In this document: piece by piece, positions 8,372-46,667 of the stretch
Numbering within the stretch: the first letter of the stretch is position 1
Layout of the letters: the number at the start of each line of letters is the position of its first letter
Assembly: GCF_009939295.1 (NCBI RefSeq)
Contig: NZ_WVIC01000004.1
Coordinates: 62,001-126,000, forward strand
Reading direction: 5' to 3'
Length of the DNA: 64,000 nt
Source: Petrachloros mirabilis ULC683
GTDB taxonomy: Bacteria; Cyanobacteriota; Cyanobacteriia; Thermosynechococcales; Thermosynechococcaceae
Translations under genes and position numbers: made by a program
Notes under the pieces: model-generated
Told to the model about the DNA's origin: nothing
Database searches by the model: none
Seen by the model: the letters and a program-made list of their open reading frames with translations, nothing else

Positions 8372-9082
8372 ATGAACCTGATGAAAAAGTGGCGCTACGG
8401 GGTCTGGTTGCTCGTGGGATGCCTGATCGTGCTGCTGCTGGGCACAACTGCCAGGGGACAGACCTGGCAGGAATGGATTCGGCAGAACCCGACCTATCCA
8501 ACCCATTCAGTCGCTCCGGCACTTCGGCAACAGAGGTCGGCCTCGCCACCCAGGGCGTCTGGGTCGGGAAATCCTCGAGTTGATTTACAAACTCGGTATT
8601 ACGCCATTCAGGGTAGTACGCCATCGCAACTGCGATCGCAGCTGAATCAACTGGGGCCCCTAGACCCAGCCAGCCAGCGTCGTTTTGACGGTTATACGGG
8701 CTGGGGCGTGCAGTGGCGCTATCAGTATCTTGATCGCGGCAGCCAGTGCCACCTCACCACCCCCCAGGTGACGGCTCAAATTCAAATGACTCTGCCACAA
8801 TGGACACCCCCGGCTGGTGCTAGCCCTCAACTCGTGCAGCACTGGCAGCGGTATCTCGCAGCACTCACGCTCCATGAAGAAGGCCACAAGCAGCACGGCA
8901 TCCAGGCCAGTCATGGGGTACTCCGAGCCTTGCAAACCCTGCCCCCAAGCCCCAGTTGCCCTCAGCTTCAGCAGGCTATCAACCAGGCGGCCACTCGCGT
9001 GGTTGCAGTCTACCGTGACCGCGATCGCCAGTATGATTTGGAAACAGGGCATGGCCGCACCCAAGGCGCTGTCTTTCCCTAG
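8372..9082 (+). CDS. Exported DUF922-type putative zinc peptidase
   Basis: 236 residues. An N-terminal signal sequence, 'WLLVGCLIVLLLGTTARG', is followed by a region with the HExxH zinc motif in 'LHEEGHKQHGIQA'. This combination fits DUF922, a family of predicted secreted zinc-dependent proteases. Another candidate is a structural HExxH protein without activity. The start ATG 8372 has GGAG at about 8361. It is probably periplasmic or membrane-tethered. The gene sits directly before an SLH-containing oxidoreductase gene on the same strand, a possible envelope-related pair. Confidence 0.75.
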   Translation: MNLMKKWRYGVWLLVGCLIVLLLGTTARGQTWQEWIRQNPTYPTHSVAPALRQQRSASPPRASGSGNPRVDLQTRYYAIQGSTPSQLRSQLNQLGPLDPASQRRFDGYTGWGVQWRYQYLDRGSQCHLTTPQVTAQIQMTLPQWTPPAGASPQLVQHWQRYLAALTLHEEGHKQHGIQASHGVLRALQTLPPSPSCPQLQQAINQAATRVVAVYRDRDRQYDLETGHGRTQGAVFP

Positions 9083-9108
9083 GCCGTTGTTTATGGCGTT
9101 TCCTCATA

Positions 9109-11379
9109 TTGCACAGCGATAGACCCGTGACCTCATTCGGACTCCTGGCTCCCGAACTTTTTTTGACCCCTGCCCCTGATCAGATTCTGAGGGCTTCCAT
9201 CCTGGTGGTGGGGGCTTCCACCGCCGCCTATTCAGCAGCTCTAGGAGCACTCCAGGCCGGGGCAGCCGTGACTTGGGTGCAGCCTCACCCCATCCTGGGG
9301 GGGCAATTTACGGCTCAGGCGCTCCCCGCACCCGATGATGCCCCTTTAATGACACCCAAGGATTTGATCCCCCGCGATCGCCGCGATCCCAAGCAACTGC
9401 AAAATCCTGAGCTGTTTGCAATTTCCCGAACCCAGCGGCAATTTCGAGAGCGGCAGCGCCAGTTGCAACCCGTGGCATCTCAAGTGCGCCAGAATCCTGG
9501 GGGCAGTTGGGTGAGTCACTTTTCTGTAACCCCTTGGGTTGCGGCTCAGGCTCTCAATGAAGCCATTCAGCCCTATTTAGAACAGAAACAACTGACCTTG
9601 GTTGTTAATGCAGAGCCTATAGCAGTGCTCACAGAGCCAACTTCTAGTCATCGGCGTCAGGTGGTCGGCGTTGTGTTTGAGCAGGGGCAAAACCGCTTTA
9701 CTGTTCAGAGTCAACTGACCCTGGAAGCTACGGATTTAGGCGATTTACTGGAGCTAGGACAAATCGAGTCCCGGGTGGGTCAAGAAGCTCGACAGGAGAC
9801 TGGAGAAGCTGTTTTGCCCCAGGCTGCTCGCCCCGAGTGCCAACAGGCATTTACCTTTTGTGCCGTGGTTGAGCTGGCAGCGCACCCGCAGCCACCTCTG
9901 ACTCCCCCTCCGAGCTATAATCAGGTTCCTTGGTTGCAGGAGGCTGAGTTTACCCCCACTTTTTGGGTAAAGCAGCAGGGACAGTGGCTCGGACATCAAT
10001 TTCTGGAGCCTCAGGGGATGTTTCGTTATCGGCGGCTTCAGCGCAGTGTCTTTGACAGCCAGGTTCGCCCTGGGGATGTCACGGTTCTGAATTGGGCTAC
10101 CAGTCCTCTGGGTGTGGCTGGGGGGTCGCCCCAAACTGCTAATGGCCACCCCATGGGGAATGGCAACGATTATCGGCCTGGCGCATTGGCCGGGGTGAGT
10201 CGGGCAGAGCGGCAGCAGCATCTCCAACGGGGGCGTGATCGCACCCAAGCCTACGTTTACTACTTGCAAACCCACGGTGCCCCCCAGCTCAAACCTCGGG
10301 GAGATCTCACCTGGACCCCAGATGGCATTGCCCACGACCCCTACATTCGTGAAGCCCGTCGCGGGGTGGCGCTCACCACCATTTGCCATGAAGATGTAGC
10401 CGCCAAATTTTTTCCCAACTCAGCCCGAGCCCGCAACTTTGTAGACAGCATCGGCATCGGTCAGTATCACTATCTAGACATGCATCCCAACGATGCACCG
10501 GGGCATGTAGAGCTGGGTGATGGCCATGTTTCGCTCCCCTTCACCGTGCCGCTAGGTGCCTTGATTCCCCTAGCCACCGATGGCTTGATTCTCTCCTCTA
10601 AGAGCATTGGCACCACCCACATCACCAACGCCGCCTACCGCATGCACCCCGTTGAGTGGGCGATCGGAGAAGCCGGGGGGCACTTGGCCGCCTACGCCCT
10701 GCGCGAAGGCCGATCCATTCGAGACATTGCTCAAAACCCCAGCCTGTATCGCCGCTTTCAAGGGCATCTGACCCGTTTTGGCATTCCCCTGTTCTGGTTC
10801 AACGATGTCTCCCACGATGACCCAGACTTTGAGGCGATTCAAGTGCTGGCCACTGCTGGCATCGTCCGCAGCGAAAGCCAGAGCAATCTGAACTTTAATC
10901 CCCAGGGCATCGTCACCCGCGCTGTCGCTTGCATCGCCCTAGTCAACGCCATGGCGCTTGACCTACTGCGGCCAGAAACACCGACTTTTATTGATGTGCC
11001 CCCGACTCACTTTGCCTACACCAGTATCGAAACCCTGGCCGCCAAAGGCATTGTTGCTGGGGTGGGGCAGCAGCGCTTTGCTCCCTCCCAGCCCCTGCTG
11101 AGGGAACACTTGGCAATTCTACTTGCTAAAGTCGCGCCTGAGAGGCTGTCTTTAGAGTCTTCCCATGCTCTACATTCGCCCCCTACCCCCCCATTCCGGA
11201 GGGCTTTGATCACCCTTAAGTCCCTCAGAATCGGGGATTTAGGGGGCAAGGGTTTAGAAACTTTTCAAACCGCCTCTAAACGCTTAAAGAATGTGGCGTT
11301 ACCCCGCGATCGTGAACCTGTGCAACGACGAGACTTGTCCCGCAGTCTTTACAAAATAGACTTTGCGCGTCCAGTTTGA
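9109..11379 (+). CDS. FAD-dependent oxidoreductase with C-terminal SLH domains
   Basis: 756 residues. The N-terminal dinucleotide-binding fold reads 'ILVVGASTAAYSAALGALQ' followed by 'GGQFTAQALPAPDD', as in the FAD_oxidored family (pfam12831-like). Residues ~575-690 contain two SLH-like repeats ('FNDVSHDDPDFEAIQVLATA' and 'FIDVPPTHFAYTSIETLA'), which in cyanobacteria bind the cell wall-outer membrane interface. The last ~75 residues are encoded partly by an inserted C/G-rich repeat (11141-11277). No ATG start is available: TTG 9109 or GTG 9127 both lack a good ribosome-binding site. The substrate is unknown. Confidence 0.82.
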   Translation: MHSDRPVTSFGLLAPELFLTPAPDQILRASILVVGASTAAYSAALGALQAGAAVTWVQPHPILGGQFTAQALPAPDDAPLMTPKDLIPRDRRDPKQLQNPELFAISRTQRQFRERQRQLQPVASQVRQNPGGSWVSHFSVTPWVAAQALNEAIQPYLEQKQLTLVVNAEPIAVLTEPTSSHRRQVVGVVFEQGQNRFTVQSQLTLEATDLGDLLELGQIESRVGQEARQETGEAVLPQAARPECQQAFTFCAVVELAAHPQPPLTPPPSYNQVPWLQEAEFTPTFWVKQQGQWLGHQFLEPQGMFRYRRLQRSVFDSQVRPGDVTVLNWATSPLGVAGGSPQTANGHPMGNGNDYRPGALAGVSRAERQQHLQRGRDRTQAYVYYLQTHGAPQLKPRGDLTWTPDGIAHDPYIREARRGVALTTICHEDVAAKFFPNSARARNFVDSIGIGQYHYLDMHPNDAPGHVELGDGHVSLPFTVPLGALIPLATDGLILSSKSIGTTHITNAAYRMHPVEWAIGEAGGHLAAYALREGRSIRDIAQNPSLYRRFQGHLTRFGIPLFWFNDVSHDDPDFEAIQVLATAGIVRSESQSNLNFNPQGIVTRAVACIALVNAMALDLLRPETPTFIDVPPTHFAYTSIETLAAKGIVAGVGQQRFAPSQPLLREHLAILLAKVAPERLSLESSHALHSPPTPPFRRALITLKSLRIGDLGGKGLETFQTASKRLKNVALPRDREPVQRRDLSRSLYKIDFARPV
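11141..11277 (+). repeat. C/G-rich dispersed repeat inserted in frame in the FAD-oxidoreductase gene
   Basis: Within the coding sequence, AGAGGCTGTCT (11141) and the reverse complement of AGACGG-like ...CGCCTCT (ending 11277) bound a segment carrying 'TTCGCCCCCTACCCCCCC' and 'GGGGATTTAGGGGGCAAGG'. The same core occurs at 31060, 31262, 32949, 33286 and 45180. It adds about 45 Pro/Arg/Leu-rich residues ('SPPTPPFRRALITLKSLR') after the second SLH repeat and the frame stays open through it. Confidence 0.75.
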
Positions 11380-11408
11380 TTTTGTCCTGAAGCGAGCCTT
11401 AAGTGAAC

Positions 11409-12179
11409 ATGCACATCCATCGACTGCCTGTATTACGAGACAATTACATCTTTGTGCTCCATGATCCTAAAACCCACACTGCCGCAGTGGTCGATCCGGC
11501 AGAGGCCAGGCCCGTTTTGGCCTGCTTAAATCAGCTTCAGGCGCGCTTAGTTGCTATTTTCAACACCCACCACCATGGCGATCATGTTGGAGGCAATCAG
11601 GAACTATTACGGCATTTTCCTGGAGCGGTTGTGTATGGCAGTGCCCCCGATCGGGGGCGAATTCCGGGTCAGCAGGTCTTTTTACAAGGGGGCGATCAGG
11701 TCTGCTTCGCAGACTGCACAGCTCAAGTGTTGTTTGTTCCCGGCCATACACTGGGTCACATTGCCTATTATTTCCCAGCACCCGGCGGAGGAGACCTTTT
11801 CTGTGGAGATACCCTATTTGCTGGGGGATGTGGTCGATTGTTTGAAGGCACGCCAGCCCAAATGCTGCAATCCTTGCAGCAGATTCGAGAGTTGCCCGAC
11901 CCCACTCGGGTTTGGTGCGCCCATGAATACACCTTCAGTAACCTTAAGTTTGCGATTACGGTTGAGGCCGAAAACCTAGCCCTACAGGAGCGACTCGTGC
12001 AGGTTCAAGCGGCACGGCAGCGGCAAGAGGCCACGGTTCCCTCTGAGATCAAGATCGAAAAACAAACCAATCCGTTTCTACGCTGGGATCAACCGGCTTT
12101 AATGGCCGCCACCCAAGGCAAAAATGCGATCCAGACTTTTGCGCGGTTGCGGGGCATGAAGGATCAGTTTTCGGGTTGA
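11409..12179 (+). CDS. gloB: Hydroxyacylglutathione hydrolase (glyoxalase II)
   Basis: About 256 residues of a metallo-beta-lactamase-fold hydrolase that splits S-lactoylglutathione to lactate and glutathione in methylglyoxal detoxification. All metal-binding motifs are visible: '[11 protein letters not shown]', '[13 protein letters not shown]', '[17 protein letters not shown]' and '[10 protein letters not shown]'. GTG 11403 would add two residues; I prefer ATG 11409 because the family begins with a short 'M-x-I-x-RLPVL-DNY' stretch, as here. It is cytosolic. It starts 29 bases after the oxidoreductase gene and may be cotranscribed with it. Confidence 0.93.
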
Positions 12180-12302
12180 TTTCTTTCTGGGGATGCATGG
12201 CTGAGTGACTCAAACCCGTTAGATTACAGTTAGGCCGCGCAGTGACAGGATGAACGCCTGAGCCAAAATGCGGCCAAGCTGTTTGCGAAAATGAGGATGT
12301 CA

Positions 12303-13370
12303 ATGGCTGAAAGGAGTAGATCACGAGGGCACAATTCTGCATCAACAACGGTGGCAGCAGATCCTCCCTTGGCTTCAAGGCTTACACTTCGAGCATTGCA
12401 GACAGGGCAAGCTTCAGAAACAGACGGGGCAGATGTCATTGCAGGGTTACAACAAACCCCCAAGGTGCTGCCATCTAAGTATTTTTATGATGATCGCGGC
12501 TCACAGTTATTTGATCAAATTTGCCATGTGCCAGAGTATTACCTCACTCGCACAGAAGCTCATATCCTGAAAACCTATGCTCCGGCCATTGCCGAGATCA
12601 CGGGGCCCTGCGAGTTGGTGGAACTGGGCAGCGGTAGTGCGACTAAGACGCGATTCCTACTCGATGCCTATGGCGATCGCAATCAGCCGTTGTACTACCG
12701 CCCTATTGATGTCAGCGGCGGTGCGCTGAAGCAAAGCGCCTTGGCACTGCTTCAAGACTATCCAACGTTAAGCATTGATGGGTTGATGGGTACCTATGAG
12801 GCGGCACTTGCTCAACTGCCCCCTGCGACATTACCCAGCCGGATGCTATGTTTTCTGGGCAGTACCCTGGGCAACCTCAGTCCTACTCAGTGCAATAGGC
12901 TCTTTGCTCAAGTTCGAGAGGCTCTACAACCAGGTGAGTTTTTCCTGCTCGGGGTTGATTTACAGAAGTCGCCGCAGCAGATTGAGCCAGCCTATAACGA
13001 CCGCGAAGGGGTTACGGCTGCTTTTAACCTAAATTTGTTGCGCCATCTGAACTGGCGCTTTCAGGCCGACTTTGACCTGGATCAGTTTCGACACCATGCT
13101 TTTTATAATCACCGGGCTCATCAAATTGAAATGCATTTACAAAGCCAGTGTGACCAGGTGGTGTCTCTGGCAATACTGGAGTTTTCGTGCTTGCTGAGGC
13201 GAGGGGAAACGATTCGCACAGAGATTTCTCGCAAGTTTGATTTAGCAGCGCTGCGATCGCAGCTTGAGCATCTGCCCTGGAACCCCGACACAAAAGTATT
13301 CCGGGTTTTGGAAGCCTGGGTTGATCAGCGAAGTTGGTTTGGGCTTTTACTCTGTCAAATTCAGTCATGA
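12303..13370 (+). CDS. egtD: L-histidine N(alpha)-methyltransferase-like protein (EgtD family)
   Basis: About 355 residues. EgtD trimethylates histidine to hercynine, the first step of ergothioneine synthesis, using SAM. Family motifs are clear: 'LPSKYFYDDRGSQLFDQI', 'PEYYLTRTEAHIL', the SAM loop 'ELVELGSGSATKTRFLL', then 'MLCFLGSTLGNLSPTQ'. ATG codons lie at 12291, 12297 and 12303; GAGG at 12293-12296 favours 12303. The sulfoxide synthase EgtB, often adjacent in cyanobacteria, is not in this window, so either it is elsewhere or this is a methyltransferase for another substrate. Confidence 0.82.
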   Translation: MAERSRSRGHNSASTTVAADPPLASRLTLRALQTGQASETDGADVIAGLQQTPKVLPSKYFYDDRGSQLFDQICHVPEYYLTRTEAHILKTYAPAIAEITGPCELVELGSGSATKTRFLLDAYGDRNQPLYYRPIDVSGGALKQSALALLQDYPTLSIDGLMGTYEAALAQLPPATLPSRMLCFLGSTLGNLSPTQCNRLFAQVREALQPGEFFLLGVDLQKSPQQIEPAYNDREGVTAAFNLNLLRHLNWRFQADFDLDQFRHHAFYNHRAHQIEMHLQSQCDQVVSLAILEFSCLLRRGETIRTEISRKFDLAALRSQLEHLPWNPDTKVFRVLEAWVDQRSWFGLLLCQIQS

Positions 13371-16598: not shown

Positions 16599-16689
16599 GC
16601 CTAACAAGGTCATGCAAGGGACGCTCGAATCAGCCGGTCTTAGACACTTTAAATTGTGCCTCGCGCCTCTGATGACGTGGTCGTTGGAC
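16599..16689 (+). other. Degenerate attC-like recombination site
   Basis: GCCTAAC (R'' consensus RYYYAAC) at 16599-16605 and GTTGGAC (R' consensus GTTRRRY) at 16683-16689 bound a 91-bp imperfect palindrome. The inner arms contain GTCAT(G)CA on the left and the complement of GTCATCA on the right, so the left arm has an extra unpaired G, as in the two better attC sites at 26687 and 46276. Beyond that the pairing is patchy. Supported but weaker than the other two. Confidence 0.5.
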
Positions 16690-23764: not shown

Positions 23765-24025
23765 ATGACAATCTCTTTAGACCTACCATCAGAGCTAGAA
23801 AATGAACTTTCTACTGAGGCTTCCCAGCTTAAATTGCCTCTGTCAGAGTATATTCTTCGGGTTCTCTCCTTTCGCCCTTTTATTCAAAACCCTCCCAAAA
23901 CAGGGCTAGACCTCGTTGCCTACTGGGAAAGTATTGGGGTGATCAACTCTCGGCCCGATATCGCTGACAGCCAGGAGCACGCCCGCCGATTGCGTGACCA
24001 AGCTGAACACCGTGAGCGGGCTTAG
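23765..24025 (+). CDS. Antitoxin of a VapBC-type pair
   Basis: 86 residues starting 'MTISLDLPSELENELSTEA', a short ribbon-helix-helix-like or coiled N-terminus followed by an acidic/basic tail 'SQEHARRLRDQAEHRERA' that would wrap the toxin. It precedes a PIN-domain gene by 7 bases on the same strand, the normal antitoxin-toxin order. Similar antitoxins in cyanobacteria are annotated only as hypothetical. Toxin inactivation next door means the antitoxin may no longer be under selection. I infer its role mainly from position. Confidence 0.7.
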   Translation: MTISLDLPSELENELSTEASQLKLPLSEYILRVLSFRPFIQNPPKTGLDLVAYWESIGVINSRPDIADSQEHARRLRDQAEHRERA

Positions 24026-24032
24026 GTAGCGA

Positions 24033-24417
24033 ATGTACCTTGTCGATACCGATGTCATAATTGACATTCAACGGGGCTACGGGCCAGCACTGGCTTGGTT
24101 TGCCTCTGTCCCAACACTGCCAAGCATTCCCGGCTTTGTGGTTATGGAATTGATTCAGGATGCTCAGAACAAGCAACAGGTGCGTAAAGTCCTACAACTT
24201 GTAGCGCCTTTGACCATTGTTTGGCCGACCGAAACTGACTGTGCCCGCGCCCTATCTGACTTTACGGCCTATCATCTCTCTCATAAGGTTGGTTTGATTG
24301 ATTGATGCCTTGATTGCGGCCTGTGCTGTTGGGCGTAGCGCAACCCTCTGTACTTTCAATGTGAAGCACTACCAAGTTATCTCCGGCTTGAGTCTGGAGC
24401 AACCCTATAGTCGCTAA
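24033..24417 (+). pseudogene. VapC-like PIN-domain ribonuclease toxin, frameshifted
   Basis: The PIN fold starts 'MYLVDTDVIIDIQRGYGPAL' with the first catalytic Asp, then 'GFVVMELIQDAQ' (Glu). The frame breaks at GATTGATTGAT (24296-24306), where one GATT appears duplicated. After removing four bases the reading continues 'GLIDALIAACAVG' and 'TFNVKHYQVISGL' to TAA 24415-24417, restoring a ~127-residue PIN protein with its last acidic residues. PIN toxins cleave tRNA or rRNA. The lesion would disarm it. Three bases after the stop begins GCCTAA, an attC left box interrupted by a group II intron. Confidence 0.8.
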
Positions 24418-24426
24418 AGCCGCCTA

Positions 24427-25037
24427 ATCGGGATAGGGAGAATCCTCACGAATCCCCCCTCCCACACCACCCATCGTGCGGCTCCGCAATGGGCGGTTTT
24501 CAACCTAACTGCTAGACGAATTGGCAGGCTTCTCATCGTAACCTTGGGCTTTCATCCAGAGGTCACGAATCGAGAGCAATCCCTGCTGTGCTAACCACTC
24601 ATTGGTCATCCCCGTCTGCGTCGCCAACGTCCGCGACAACCGCCAATAGCCCTTCCGACTTAACCCCGTCGAGAAGGCATGTTGTCTCGGGGTTTCCAGT
24701 TTGAGCAGGTTGCCAATGCGCGTCCTCGGTCTACGCCACTGTTTTCAGTAACACATCCGGATTCGACGCCTTAGCCACCCATCTAACTCGGGAATTGGGC
24801 CATAGCGCTGGGAAATCCCAAAGTAGCCCATCCAACCCCGCAGGTAGAGGCTGATCCGCTTCAGCCGGCATTCCATCGACACTCGCCACCGCCGCGAGGT
24901 TACCCCCCGCAACCGGTGCTTAAAGTCTTGGAACGCTCGCTCAGACCAAACAATGCGAATCCCCTGAAACATAAAGCTCAGGTACTCTAATCGCTCTATT
25001 CGGCAGACCCGACTCTTGAGCGGATTAACCTTGAGTC
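24427..25037 (-). mobile_element. 3' part of a group IIC-type (attC-targeting) intron
   Basis: On the minus strand the sequence carries the end of an intron-encoded maturase, then a domain V-like hairpin region ('GCGGAGCCGCACGATGGG', 'GGTGTGGGAGG') and an end '...CCCTATCCCGAT'. The 3' exon starts TAGGCGGC. This is the layout of class C introns that insert into the bottom strand of integron attC sites, opposite to the cassette gene and within its R'' box, as here directly after vapC. The 5' half is missing, cut by an IS4-family element at 25038. Confidence 0.75.
24505..25037 (-). pseudogene. Group II intron maturase (LtrA-like), C-terminal fragment
   Basis: The reading 'LKVNPLKSRVCRIERLEYL', 'WRVSMECRLKRISLYLRGWM' and 'LARTLATQTGMTNEWL'-like segments (here 'RTLATQTGMTNEWLAQQG') are the end of the reverse transcriptase and the maturase X domain. 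An in-frame TGA at 24745-24747 replaces the Trp of the family's 'C-F/Y-W-K-Q-W' motif; the frame then runs open to TAG 24505-24507. There is no endonuclease domain, as usual for class C introns. The N-terminal RT is missing. It is non-functional in this form. Confidence 0.82.
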
Positions 25038-26343
25038 CTTAGTGGTGCAGAAAACTCAAAGGAGCTGAAAGTCTTAGAAGGCAGTCACCTTGGCAAACTC
25101 AATGCGAGAGTTCATAGCATCTCGCTTCTTGAGAGAGGCATCTCTCAGGTGGTGGATTACAGCGTGGCAAATGCCTAAACGGTGGCAGCGGTAATCTTTG
25201 ATAGCAAAGCTGATTAATGCGTCGCAACCCTATTTGCAAAAAGCTTAACCCCCTGTGGGCATGCCAATCAATGGAATTGAGCGCACCTTGAGTAATTGCC
25301 TCAATCGCAACGGAAATGGCAATAATGGTCGCAGCCGCCAGTAACATCAGGAGTCGGCTTAAAGCATCTGCATCTCTGATTCGAGAGCGAGGCAGCTTAA
25401 AGGCCGCAGACTTATAATCCTTGAAATGGGGTTCAATCCCCCCAAAGCGTTGACCATAGAGGGCAAAGGTTTGCACAGAAGGCGTTGTATCTGTAATCAC
25501 AGCCCAAGCCTCCTGAGCTATGGATAAACGAGCAGTCGCCAAATGGCATTGGATATCTCCAAGAATAGTGACATCAGTAAACAGAAAAGCTTGTTCAGGC
25601 TCTGGCAACAGGTCAGCAACTGACTCAGGTTGAGTATTGGACAACGTAATTCTCAAATCCGATTTAGCTCGAATCGCCCAAAACCATTGATGGGATCGTA
25701 GCCAGCGAATCAATTCACCATGCTCAAACCCACGGTCAGCCAATAGAGTGATTTGACAATTCGGGGGCAAAACCGCCTCAGCCGCATCCAACACTGAACA
25801 ATAGTCCGCAAAGGCAACGGTTGCACTGCCATGTTTCATCACCTTTTGAGCGATGGGAAAAGAGCGTCCTCCCCAAGCTAGACAGACCTCTATGAGACAA
25901 TATTCGTCCCACAGCATGCTCGTATCCAGGGTTAGTATCATTGCCATGCCCGCCCACGCTTGAAGGAATTGCACCAGTAAGGGAATGTAGAACGTTTCTG
26001 AGGTGATCTTGGGATTATGAACAAAGTAGCTCAGCCGCTCAAAGTGGCTACGCCCATGACATGAACGATGACTCAAATAAGTCAGCCAATGGCTTAAGCA
26101 ACCACTTTGAGATTGAAGGATGGCTGCGATGTTTTCAGCAAAAACAGTCAGGTGAAGTTTATCTTTGGGTGTGATCCATTGACTCAATTGAGTTTGCAGT
26201 TGACGATAGAGTTGAGGGGTTGACATGAGTTTGCTTTGAGTTGGAGAACTTAAGCATCACATTAAAAGCCCCTCTCTGTCACCATTGACGAATTTCAATA
26301 CTCCCTGCTGGTATGCCTTCTACGACTTTTCTGCACCACTAAG
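25038..26343 (-). mobile_element. IS4-family insertion sequence, complete
   Basis: 1,306 bp with perfect 17-bp ends: CTTAGTGGTGCAGAAAA at 25038-25054 and its reverse complement at 26327-26343. It encodes one DDE transposase. Flanks differ (intron maturase on the left, isochorismatase on the right) and no target duplication is seen, so the present junctions come from a deletion or recombination between two copies rather than a simple insertion. Confidence 0.88.
25099..26226 (-). CDS. IS4-family DDE transposase
   Basis: 375 residues, full length for the element. DDE signature: 'MILTLDTSMLWDEY' (first Asp), 'ITLLADRGFEHGELIRWL' (second Asp) and 'FGGIEPHFKDYKSAAFKLP' (Glu, with the following Y-x-K part of the IS4 YREK-like box). 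The C-terminal tail is Pro/Cys-rich. The frame has no visible lesion and both IS ends are intact, so the element may still be active. Start ATG 26224-26226 lies 100 bases inside the right end. Confidence 0.85.
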   Translation of the reverse strand: MSTPQLYRQLQTQLSQWITPKDKLHLTVFAENIAAILQSQSGCLSHWLTYLSHRSCHGRSHFERLSYFVHNPKITSETFYIPLLVQFLQAWAGMAMILTLDTSMLWDEYCLIEVCLAWGGRSFPIAQKVMKHGSATVAFADYCSVLDAAEAVLPPNCQITLLADRGFEHGELIRWLRSHQWFWAIRAKSDLRITLSNTQPESVADLLPEPEQAFLFTDVTILGDIQCHLATARLSIAQEAWAVITDTTPSVQTFALYGQRFGGIEPHFKDYKSAAFKLPRSRIRDADALSRLLMLLAAATIIAISVAIEAITQGALNSIDWHAHRGLSFLQIGLRRINQLCYQRLPLPPFRHLPRCNPPPERCLSQEARCYELSH

Positions 26344-26600
26344 CCACAAGTGTGTGCTTGGTGTATCCAGTGCTCAGTGCGATCGCAGCAGGATATCAAG
26401 TTCAAGCTGTCATGGATGCTTCTGGATCGCCTTCCAAGCTAGCAGAAGATGTTTCCTGGCGACGAATGGAAAATGCTGGTGCGATTTTGACAGCTACTGA
26501 TTTAGTGATTGCTGAATTAGGGCAGGATTGGAGTACATCTGTAGGCAGTCAACTCATTCAAGTGTTATTTCAGCATGTATTACCCTCGATCTCTGCCTAG
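26344..26600 (+). pseudogene. Isochorismatase-family hydrolase, C-terminal fragment
   Basis: About 85 residues beginning right at the IS4 end: 'TSVCLVYPVLSAIAAGYQVQ' contains the catalytic Cys region, followed by 'VMDASGSPSKLAEDVSWRRM' and 'TATDLVIAELGQDW'. This matches YcaC-like cysteine hydrolases of the isochorismatase superfamily. The N-terminal half with the catalytic Asp and Lys was removed by the IS. The stop at 26598-26600 lies 86 bases before a good attC site on the same strand, so this was probably an integron cassette gene. Confidence 0.78.
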
Positions 26601-26686
26601 CTTGATTTCCGCTCAATTAAATTAATCGAGTTGTCGGCAGATAGCACCATCCTTCAGTTATTGAGCTTGTCGTTCACAAAAGCGCC

Positions 26687-26773
26687 GCATAACAATTCGC
26701 TTGGAGCGGATTGTCGAAAGATCTTGGTCTTAAGGTCAGGGTTATTTGCAGCCGCTCAAGCGAACCGTTAGGC
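26687..26773 (+). other. Integron attC recombination site
   Basis: GCATAAC at 26687-26693 and GTTAGGC at 26767-26773 are the R'' and R' boxes. Inside, TTCGCTTG-G-AGCGG on the left pairs with the reverse complement of CCGCTCAAGCGAA on the right: 8 + 5 paired bases with one extra G on one strand. That unpaired base is the extrahelical base by which integron integrases recognise the folded bottom strand. The palindrome extends outward through AAAAGCGCC. No intI gene is visible in the window. Confidence 0.85.
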
Positions 26774-26835
26774 GCTTTTCCAAATTTTTTTATCCTTGGG
26801 TCGTAACCAGCAACGTTATGGGTTACACTCAATGA

Positions 26836-27112
26836 ATGATAGTCAGTTTCAAGCATCGAGGACTAGAGCAGTTCTTTGAGTTAGGAAGCACCCGAGGTAT
26901 TCAAGCAAACCATGCTAAGCGGATTCGGATGATTCTAGCTCGCCTCAATGCTGCGACTTCACCGCAAGACATGAATTTGCCTGGATTGGCACTTCATGAA
27001 CTGGCGGGACAACGTAAAGAAACCTGGTCAAAGAGTATCTGGAAACTGGCGGATCACATTTACCTTTGACGGTGCTGATGCTTGTGATGTTGATCTTGAG
27101 GACTACCACTGA
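26836..27112 (+). pseudogene. HigB/RelE-family toxin, frameshifted
   Basis: The first 66 codons read 'MIVSFKHRGLEQFFELGS' and 'MNLPGLALHELAGQRKETWS', typical of HigB (RelE/ParE fold) mRNA interferases. Near 27035 the frame slips; reading on in the next frame gives 'RVSGNWRITFTFDGADACDV' and 'LEDYH' to TGA 27110-27112, the conserved end of the family. A one-base insertion or two-base loss explains it. Toxin activity is therefore probably lost. Its start is 63 bases after an attC site and its stop overlaps higA, as expected for a TA cassette. Confidence 0.82.
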
Positions 27113-27194
27113 TGAAAATGCATAATCCGCCACATCCTGGTGAAGTTCTTAAAGAACTTTGTATCGAACCTCTGAATCTGACCGTGACTGAGGC
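27112..27194 (+). pseudogene. HigA antitoxin, 5' fragment
   Basis: ATG 27112 overlaps the higB stop (TGATG). About 27 residues, '[20 protein letters not shown]' then 'LTVTEA', are the start of HigA-type Xre antitoxins. The gene is cut at 27195 by the left end of an ISAs1-family element. The rest of the helix-turn-helix is not found on the other side of the IS. Because the toxin is also broken, loss of the antitoxin would be tolerated. Confidence 0.8.
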
Positions 27195-28407
27195 CAGGGT
27201 TATTTCATTCTAGACAGGTAGGCTAAGATTCTTGTATAGTAGGGCATTCGCCGAAAGGAAACCCTCCCGCCAAGGACATCTCCCGCCATGAGTACCCTCG
27301 CCATTGTCGAAGCATTTCGAGACTTACCCGACACCCGCCGCGAAGCCGGACGTCGCCATGAATTAGCCTTGTGTTTAGCACTGTTCACCTTGGCGGTTAG
27401 TGCCGGATGCCGTGGCTTTTTGGCAATGGGGGACTGGTTAAACAGTTATCGAGACGAGTTGGTCGAGTGGTTTGCGCCGCCCAAAAACCGATTACCGTCG
27501 TATAGTACGATTCGGCGGGCGCTCTTGAAGTTAGACTACGCCGCCTATAGTCATTGTCTGGCAAACTTTTTTGAAATTGAGCCGTTGGCCGGGAAGACCA
27601 TCGCCCTTGACGGCAAGACCTTACGGGGGTCATATAACGCCGAGACACCCGCGAGCAAGGCCGACCCCCATCAGGCGATCCAATTGGTGAGCGTGTATGT
27701 GGTGGAACGGGGGTTGATTTTACCGGTTCAACCCGTTGATAAGAAGAGTAATGAAATCACCGCATTGCCCCCTGTACTCAAGGAACTGGCCCATCGAGGC
27801 GTGGTCTTTGCCTTTGATGCCCTCAATACCCAAAAAAAACTTGTGTACAGATAATCGCTTCCGGGAATCATTACTTGGGTGTCCTCAAAGGGAATCATGG
27901 CAACTTTCTCAAGGCCATTAAGGGGCAATTTCAGGCTCAAGAGTCAGTTCACACCGTCGAACAGGGGCATGGACGGGTGGAGCGTCGCAGTGTCAGCGTG
28001 TTTCGTGAGGTTGACTTACTTCCCGGTGCCCAGGAATGGGCTGCTCTGAAAACAGTGATTCGGGTGAAGCGCTATCGTCATATCCTCAAAGGTGGCTATA
28101 TCTTGATTAAAAAGCCGACAACCCACTATTACATTAGCTCGTTAGATGAGAGTGCCCAAGACTTTGGCCAACGGATACGAGAATATTGGCAGGTAGAGAA
28201 TAAGGTGCATTATGTACGCGATGTCACCCAAGGAGAAGATGCATCGAGAATACGGGTTGAGCCACTACCGAATATATTGGCTATAGCTCGAAATCTAGCC
28301 CTAAATTTGTATCGAGACCATGGCTGTACCAATATGGCGCAAGCCCAACCCAAGGCAGGGAAAGGTCTCAACTTCCTTAAATCTCTTTTTGGAATGAAAT
28401 AGCCCTG
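27195..28407 (+). mobile_element. ISAs1-family insertion sequence
   Basis: 1,213 bp with 16-bp ends differing at one base: CAGGGTTATTTCATTC at the left and the complement of CAGGGCTATTTCATTC at the right. It carries one transposase gene split by a frameshift. No target duplication is seen, and higA does not continue to the right, so the far flank was altered later. Confidence 0.85.
27288..28402 (+). pseudogene. ISAs1-family transposase split by a -1 frameshift at an A8 run
   Basis: Two frames together make a complete ~370-residue DDE transposase. The first (27288-27854) contains 'GKTIALDGKTLRGSYN' and 'VVFAFDALNTQKK'; the second (to TAG 28400-28402) continues 'NHYLGVLKGNHGNFLKAI' and 'YWQVENKVHYVRDVTQGED'. 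The break is exactly at eight adenines (27832-27839), read in the zero frame as AAA AAA followed by C, a classic slippery site. It may be a polymerase slip that killed the gene or a site allowing -1 ribosomal frameshifting. This IS family is normally encoded in one frame, which favours mutation. Confidence 0.8.
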
Positions 28408-45705: not shown

Positions 45706-45930
45706 ATGTCAAAGCTACTTGAACGAATTACAGTAAATCCTAGGCAATGTGGTGGTCGTCCTTGTATTCGTGGTATGAGAATCCGAGTGTCTGATGTTTT
45801 GGATTTGTTCGCAGCAGGTTTAAGTGCTGAAGAGATTTTAGAAGACTTACCAGATTTAGAAATGGATGATATACGAGCCTCCCTAACATATGCAGCACGT
45901 AAACTGAACCATCCTGTATTGGTGGCATGA
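45706..45930 (+). CDS. DUF433 antitoxin
   Basis: 74 residues. 'ITVNPRQCGGRPCIRGMRI' and 'RVSDVLDLFAAGLSAEEIL' are the signature of DUF433, a small winged-helix-like family that serves as antitoxin for PIN-like DUF5615 toxins. TGGAGG at 45691-45696 supports ATG 45706. The stop codon overlaps the start of the toxin gene (ATGA), so the two are translationally coupled. It probably binds its own promoter. Confidence 0.92.
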   Translation: MSKLLERITVNPRQCGGRPCIRGMRIRVSDVLDLFAAGLSAEEILEDLPDLEMDDIRASLTYAARKLNHPVLVA

Positions 45931-46268
45931 CAACCATTTGGATCGATGCACATCTATCTCCGGCAATAGCAAGCTGGATTACAGATACCTTTGGGATCAC
46001 AGCGTTGGCGTTACGGAATCTTGGTCTACGAGATGCAGAAGACCCTGAAATCTTTGAGGCTGCAAAGGCTCAAGGAGTAATTTTCATGACGAAAGATAGT
46101 GATTTTGTAGATTTAGTTGAGCGGCTAGGATCACCACCACAAATTATCTGGTTGACTTGCGGCAATACCTCAAATGCGAGGCTAAGAGAGATATTGAGTT
46201 CAGTTCTACCAGAAACACTAGAGTTGCTACGTTCTGGTGAAAAATTAGTAGAGATCAGTGGGGACTAG
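45927..46268 (+). CDS. DUF5615 PIN-like toxin
   Basis: 113 residues. The PIN-like fold shows 'IWIDAHLSPAIASWI' (first Asp) and 'GVIFMTKDSDFVDLVERLG' (acidic pair), then 'IIWLTCGNTSNARLREIL'. This is DUF5615 (Mut7-C-like), the ribonuclease-type partner of DUF433 antitoxins. Both genes look intact. The stop at 46266-46268 is only seven bases before an attC site on the same strand, so the pair forms a complete TA gene cassette of an integron type. Confidence 0.92.
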   Translation: MTTIWIDAHLSPAIASWITDTFGITALALRNLGLRDAEDPEIFEAAKAQGVIFMTKDSDFVDLVERLGSPPQIIWLTCGNTSNARLREILSSVLPETLELLRSGEKLVEISGD

Positions 46269-46667
46269 CACGGCAGCATAACAACCCCAATGCACCCGAC
46301 CGATGAGAGGTTGTTTATGGGCGTGCGAGGTTATCTGCGACGGGTGATTGGGGTCGTTAATGGGATTGGGTGCTGAGCATTTGCCTAGCCATGGCACAGC
46401 CAAAGTATCGCCCTCCCAGTCAATTTCCACAAACATCTCCCGCTCGCACTCATCTTCCGGTGGCATGCCCGTTACTTCCACGGTCGTACCTTCTTTCAAG
46501 GGGGAAATTCGTCGCTTACTAACACAGACGGCTGTGAAAGGAAATTGCATCGTACCCTCTAAGTAGTAGTACCAGCCCATTGCCTGTTCTTCCAGGCTAT
46601 AGGCATCCACCACAATCTCCATAGTGATCCGTTCTTCCCGCTCTTCATCACGTTTTGCTTTGGCCAT
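46245..46667 (-). CDS. CcbP-like calcium-binding protein with a foreign C-terminus
   Basis: 140 residues. The first ~95 match the cyanobacterial calcium-binding protein CcbP: 'MEIVVDAYSLEEQAMGWYYY', 'GTMQFPFTAVCVSKRRISPL', then 'MPPEDECEREMFVEIDW'. In Anabaena CcbP buffers calcium and affects heterocyst formation; here it suggests calcium control more generally. The final ~45 residues ('NPINDPNHPSQITSHAHK...') are encoded by the attC site and unlike the family's usual 'DWHYWV' ending. So the original 3' end was replaced when the cassette arrived. The acidic Ca-binding patch may be reduced. Confidence 0.8.
   Translation of the reverse strand: MAKAKRDEEREERITMEIVVDAYSLEEQAMGWYYYLEGTMQFPFTAVCVSKRRISPLKEGTTVEVTGMPPEDECEREMFVEIDWEGDTLAVPWLGKCSAPNPINDPNHPSQITSHAHKQPLIGRVHWGCYAAVLVPTDLY
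46276..46362 (+). other. Integron attC recombination site directly after a TA pair
   Basis: 87 bp, the same length as the site at 26687. GCATAAC (46276-46282) is the R'' box; the R' position reads GTTAATG (46356-46362), degenerate in its last bases. Inside, ACCCCAAT-G-CACCCG pairs with the complement of CGGGTGATTGGGGT: 8 + 6 bases with one extra G on the left strand, the extrahelical base. It overlaps the 3' end of the minus-strand ccbP-like gene. Confidence 0.82.

Follow-up and report, generated by a model that had tools for sequence, protein, structure and literature searches.

The stretch of DNA analysed here, referred to as the window, comprises 64,000 nt of the cyanobacterium Petrachloros mirabilis ULC683 (positions 62001-126000 of contig C7; the assembly has 4.12 Mb in 79 contigs). 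The locus under study consists of the 3′ part of an isochorismatase-family gene, an attC site and the 5′ part of a HigBA cassette, flanked by two insertion sequences (Table 1). The IS4-family element cuts the isochorismatase gene on the left, and the first-pass annotation had correctly described this gene as truncated. The ISAs1-family element cuts HigA after about 27 codons. No matching target duplications were found at either element. The annotation had also placed a HigBA pair 3′ of the attC site; the position holds, but the “pair” consists of remnants. The higB gene carries a 2-bp deletion, which is shared by a copy on contig C1, while the alignment shows intact versions on contig C78 and in the relative G017. 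With higB out of frame and higA interrupted by the ISAs1-family element, both genes are dead in the window.

An IS-rich stretch of the window also contains, judged by eye, a VapB-like gene and, after it, a VapC-like PIN gene (23765-24305), for both of which no Pfam match was obtained at 0.001. In the same stretch, a short open reading frame on the minus strand (24745-24972) resembles by eye the terminal part of a group II intron maturase.

Table 1. Features of the window (positions refer to its first nucleotide)
Feature	Position	Strand	Characteristics
attC, solitary	16599..16689	+	R1 30.5 bits
IS4-family insertion sequence	25038..26343	-	17-bp ends CTTAGTGGTGCAGAAAA; transposase 25099-26226
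Isochorismatase-family hydrolase gene, 3′ part	26344..26600	+	PF00857; NF041461 YcaC-like
attC under study	26687..26773	+	87 bp; R″ GCATAAC 26687-26693, R′ GTTAGGC 26767-26773
HigBA cassette, 5′ part	26767..27194	+	from the junction of G and TTAGGCGC to the ISAs1 insertion
higB toxin gene, frameshifted	26836..27069	+	PF05015; 77 aa (92 aa if intact)
higA antitoxin gene, first ~27 codons	27114..27194	+	C1 copy: TIGR02607 HigA, 116 bits
ISAs1-family insertion sequence	~27195..28407	+	ends CAGGGTTATTTCATTC / GAATGAAATAGCCCTG; transposase in two frames 27288-28402
attC, third site	46276..46361	+	R1 16.1 bits, R2 52.9 bits

The R′ box of the attC site matches GTTRRRY exactly. The R″ box deviates from RYYYAAC in one base, an A for a Y, as it does in other attCs upstream of intI genes. 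A strict RYYYAAC scan passes over the site, and the definition of the R″ box was relaxed for the box-plus-arm scan. The arms read TTCGCTT[G]GAGCGG[A] on the left and CCGCTCAAGCGAA on the right, and beyond the L boxes the inner stem is weak. Boxes, length and arms with one extra G on the left are all as the first-pass annotation had given them. The box-plus-arm score is 22.2, compared with 19.7 for the top of 60 random 64-kb windows that were matched to the real window in dinucleotide make-up. The bottom strand folds with -20.1 kcal/mol versus -11.6 +/- 2.4 kcal/mol for shuffled sequences, i.e. better than 199 of the 200 shuffles (z -3.5).

The covariance-model search that the annotation had recommended was performed with model R1, which was trained on 43 attCs upstream of IntI genes, from non-cyanobacterial genomes only. 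The site reaches 33.6 bits on the plus strand (E-values of 3.9e-6 in the 64-kb window and 2.6e-4 in the genome) versus 8.3 bits on the minus strand. For a second model, R2, which was built from 42 cyanobacterial attCs and used for the inventory only, the score is 80.1 bits. Rfam models at gathering thresholds gave no match anywhere in the 64-kb window. Over the 42 cyanobacterial sites, compensating changes occur in 13 of 18 pairs, and the covariation counts were matched by none of 500 shuffles. The unpaired positions of the left arm are conserved among these sites, and the extra G of the site in the window falls at one of them. The extrahelical base of attCs is thought to create strand polarity. 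By its end boxes, its paired L″/L′ arms with an extrahelical base and its R1 score, the element is an attC, and it is polar; the earlier reading of the site as an integron attC whose extrahelical base determines strand choice is borne out by the difference between the strands and by the conserved unpaired position of the extra G.

Could the site be an ordinary dispersed hairpin repeat, REP- or MITE-like or a terminator, with a chance likeness to attC? Similar hairpins are present at 39 loci of the genome and are mostly solitary, as such a repeat would be. However, R1 finds the site with the right strand polarity though it contains no cyanobacterial training sequence, and it has no match at all in the cyanobacterial genomes G025, G050 and G295. 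In addition, attCs occur in tandem beside a full intI gene, and the identity of HigBA copies ends exactly between G and TT (both described below). A chance likeness is thus extremely improbable.

The block in the window has a near-identical copy elsewhere in the genome: over 855 bp, positions 26340-27194 are 99.9% identical to C1:44-897. That C1 and the window represent one locus assembled twice was discounted, as the flanks differ on both sides. The C1 block has the order isochorismatase-attC-HigBA-attC, with HigA whole and the second attC at C1:1097-1183, and the two attCs around HigBA are about 620 bp apart. We aligned the HigBA copies of C1, C78 and the relatives G017, G012 and G003, and they are alike only between the crossover points, with unrelated flanks. 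The 5′ identity starts between G and TTAGGCGC, with different attCs before it (these ends are comparable in C1, C78 and G017). The 3′ identity stops between CCG and TT of the second attC (CCATT in G012) and is followed by unrelated sequence. HigBA is therefore a gene cassette in C1, C78, G017, G012 and G003, while the window keeps only its 5′ part. Judged from the alignment, these boundaries appear to be the signature of IntI-mediated cassette exchange. The first-pass annotation had named a score no better than that of random palindromes, together with a block fixed in all relatives and devoid of cassette boundaries, as findings that would speak against an attC; instead, the R1 score is high, and the HigBA cassette is found in differing contexts with exact boundaries.

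For the isochorismatase gene, contig C1 breaks inside the gene. Its N-terminal part was sought genome-wide for a left cassette boundary and is missing from the assembly. The orthologues in G009 and G001 adjoin an HxlR-like regulator (named by eye), and no attC was found at either of them. We do not claim the isochorismatase gene as a cassette gene. A hairpin, GGTYGGTAGTGAGACGACC, that lies behind two attCs was checked as a possible common target and occurs only twice.

The annotation had reported that the window contains no integrase gene and had suggested looking for intI elsewhere. The statement is true of the window, but not of the genome, since the end of contig C18 encodes a full IntI of 322 aa (TIGR02249, 480 bits, over the cut-off). 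The closest relative of solved structure is V. cholerae IntI4 (1e-98), and the catalytic motifs GLR, CHTLRHS, LLGH and IYTH are intact. Beside the gene lie an attI-like GTTAGGC and 241-bp tandem attC units, where the contig ends. At the level of the genome, this is a complete integron, with an IntI over the curated cut-off, intact motifs and an adjacent attC array. The integrase is probably active. About 15 kb from intI, contig C18 also carries what looks like a CRISPR array (G000, locus L006, 2596-3921), in which 36-bp repeats, GTGCCGAAACCTCTGATGCCGTAAGGCGTTGAGCAC, alternate with spacers of about 35 bp.

A 55-residue intI fragment is found on C78. It belongs to an array-like stretch (locus L009, 8147-17626) with at least seven attCs and an intact HigBA, as well as a GNAT-like acetyltransferase gene and two GTPase-like genes. 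The stretch may be the distal part of the C18 array, now detached. Of 386 sampled cyanobacterial species, 23 encode an IntI that exceeds the cut-off, and so do 6 of the 29 genomes from the family of the present strain. Genomes of the family also contain many short intI fragments, some with stops (18 matches in G011 alone), which suggests a frequent gain and loss of integrase genes.

Two further attCs in the window, 16599-16689 and 46276-46361, are absent from the first-pass annotation; the latter lies directly behind a DUF5615 PIN-like gene (45927-46268). The nearest same-strand attCs are about 10 and 20 kb away from the site under study, which is thus solitary, the only attC within 4 kb. This bears on the proposal, made in the annotation, that it belongs to a CALIN, a cluster of attCs lacking an integron integrase. 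CALINs are known away from intI, and their threshold is two attCs (PMC12444791). Like the elements that IntegronFinder reports as CALINs (PMC12444791), the site is an attC without an adjacent intI; unlike them, the locus has one attC only, and an intI is present elsewhere in the genome. The combination of two or more attCs within about 4 kb with a lack of intI in the vicinity is found at the C1 twin and not in the window. The parent of the block would count as a small CALIN, because the C1 twin has two attCs around HigBA, and to that extent the proposal survives. Moreover, clusters of several attCs are present in the relatives G017 and G018, both of which lack a full intI. In the window, however, the loss of the downstream attC at the ISAs1 junction, the single attC within 4 kb and the intI in the same genome together make a standing array without integrase highly unlikely. 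A real CALIN does occur in a relative: in G018 (contig C1, 2010000-2029000), which has no intI match, seven attCs lie at 8722-12913 of locus L222.

The inventory with R2 (E < 0.01) yielded at least 51 attCs, which lie at 39 loci on 23 contigs; 30 are solitary. These numbers are a lower bound, as 150 of 810-973 candidates were scored in both genome searches. Some of the scattered attCs score modestly and may have decayed. For 11 of 28 attCs, the gene directly upstream belongs to a toxin-antitoxin family, compared with 1 of 70 control positions (p 2e-6). The families are PIN, DUF5615, YafQ, PemK/MazF, HigA and HEPN; the YafQ cassette on contig C4 is an example that is both intact and solitary. 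The controls were taken from the same contigs and comprise 20 longer proteins, with their top 25 families considered, and 50 shorter ones with all families considered; against the latter alone, the enrichment is 11/28 vs 1/50 (p 2.5e-5).

Two sources of this scatter were compared. The dispersed attCs could stem from the fragmentation of one large array by insertion sequences rather than from the insertion of single cassettes by IntI. Array break-up by insertion sequences clearly happened in the window, where the copy lies between two different elements that lack matching target duplications, and many contigs break at repeats. However, the relative G011 has a solo HigBA between gloA and a porin-like gene. 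The eno-gloA-porin interval is conserved, and no transposase gene was seen next to this HigBA; in G009, G008, G003, G014, G006 and G012, enolase, gloA and porin are contiguous without HigBA. Furthermore, the exact R′ sequence GTTAGGC is found in 3 of 21 solitary or last-in-cluster sites vs 6 of 11 internal sites (p 0.03; grouped by hand), and a more degenerate R′ in solitary and last sites is expected if the last bases come from the target. Fragmentation as the sole source is possible, though on balance doubtful.

Insertion of single cassettes at non-att sites (attG-type) fits as a source of the scatter, and IntI presumably made these insertions. The likeliest history combines both processes: IntI would have inserted cassettes outside arrays, and insertion sequences would have broken arrays up. 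A more far-reaching view is that toxin-antitoxin cassettes colonise the whole chromosome singly in this cyanobacterium and its family, via IntI at non-att sites, and persist as their loss is toxic, with solitary cassettes outnumbering arrayed ones. We put it forward tentatively, at somewhat less than even odds.

For the site in the window, our reading, with a probability of about 0.9, is that it is a genuine attC of an IntI-type integron that was stranded by insertion sequences. It would be an attC of the functional type that belongs to a cyanobacterial chromosomal integron and is now a relic. Its bottom strand would fold into a hairpin, and the unpaired bases of the left arm, the extra G and then the A, would orient the integrase. 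IntI is predicted to cut the folded bottom strand between the G and the TT of the R′ box, which would make the downstream HigBA segment the next cassette. The IntI encoded on the other contig could in principle act in trans on the site. The block in the window is an 855-bp duplicate of the C1 segment that was cut off by the IS4-family and ISAs1-family elements. Cut on both sides, this copy would no longer be excisable as a complete cassette.

Integrons in cyanobacteria are known from surveys (Nemergut 2008, PMC2426708; Ghaly 2021, PMC8352920), and a Cyanobacteria attC model was built in the latter. The integrons covered in the survey text searched share the phylum and the attC type with the present genome, which adds one case to them, and a per-genome scatter of solitary toxin-antitoxin cassettes was not found in that text. 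The cyanobacterial integron literature that we searched consisted of surveys, none of them on this genome, and a limited literature search retrieved no paper describing an excess of solitary toxin-antitoxin cassettes in cyanobacteria. Toxin-antitoxin cassettes as such are known from chromosomal integrons (PMC11023631). The sedentary chromosomal integrons of the V. cholerae type (superintegron, IntI4) have an integrase of the same family (1e-98 to IntI4), a homogeneous attC family, which here spans 86-92 bp, and toxin-antitoxin cassettes. In contrast to them, few attCs are seen beside intI here, where the contig ends, and the majority are dispersed across the genome.

Cassette insertion at attG sites is known from laboratory work in E. 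coli (Loot et al. 2024, Nat Microbiol, as described in PMC11023631 and PMC12444791). As in that account, the cassettes considered here lie outside arrays, at sites of the chromosome other than attI or attC; that work is an experiment in E. coli, whereas ours draws on natural genomes. In itself, the site in the window is a further natural member of the known attC class. The part worth following is its setting, i.e. an intact IntI together with at least 51 attCs that are mostly solitary and often lie behind toxin-antitoxin genes. The family also offers at least one clear pair of a filled and an unfilled site, the HigBA of G011 versus the six relatives. With these properties, the genome is a natural test bed for the spread of cassettes outside arrays, which, according to the descriptions consulted, has so far been known mainly from experiments in E. 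coli.
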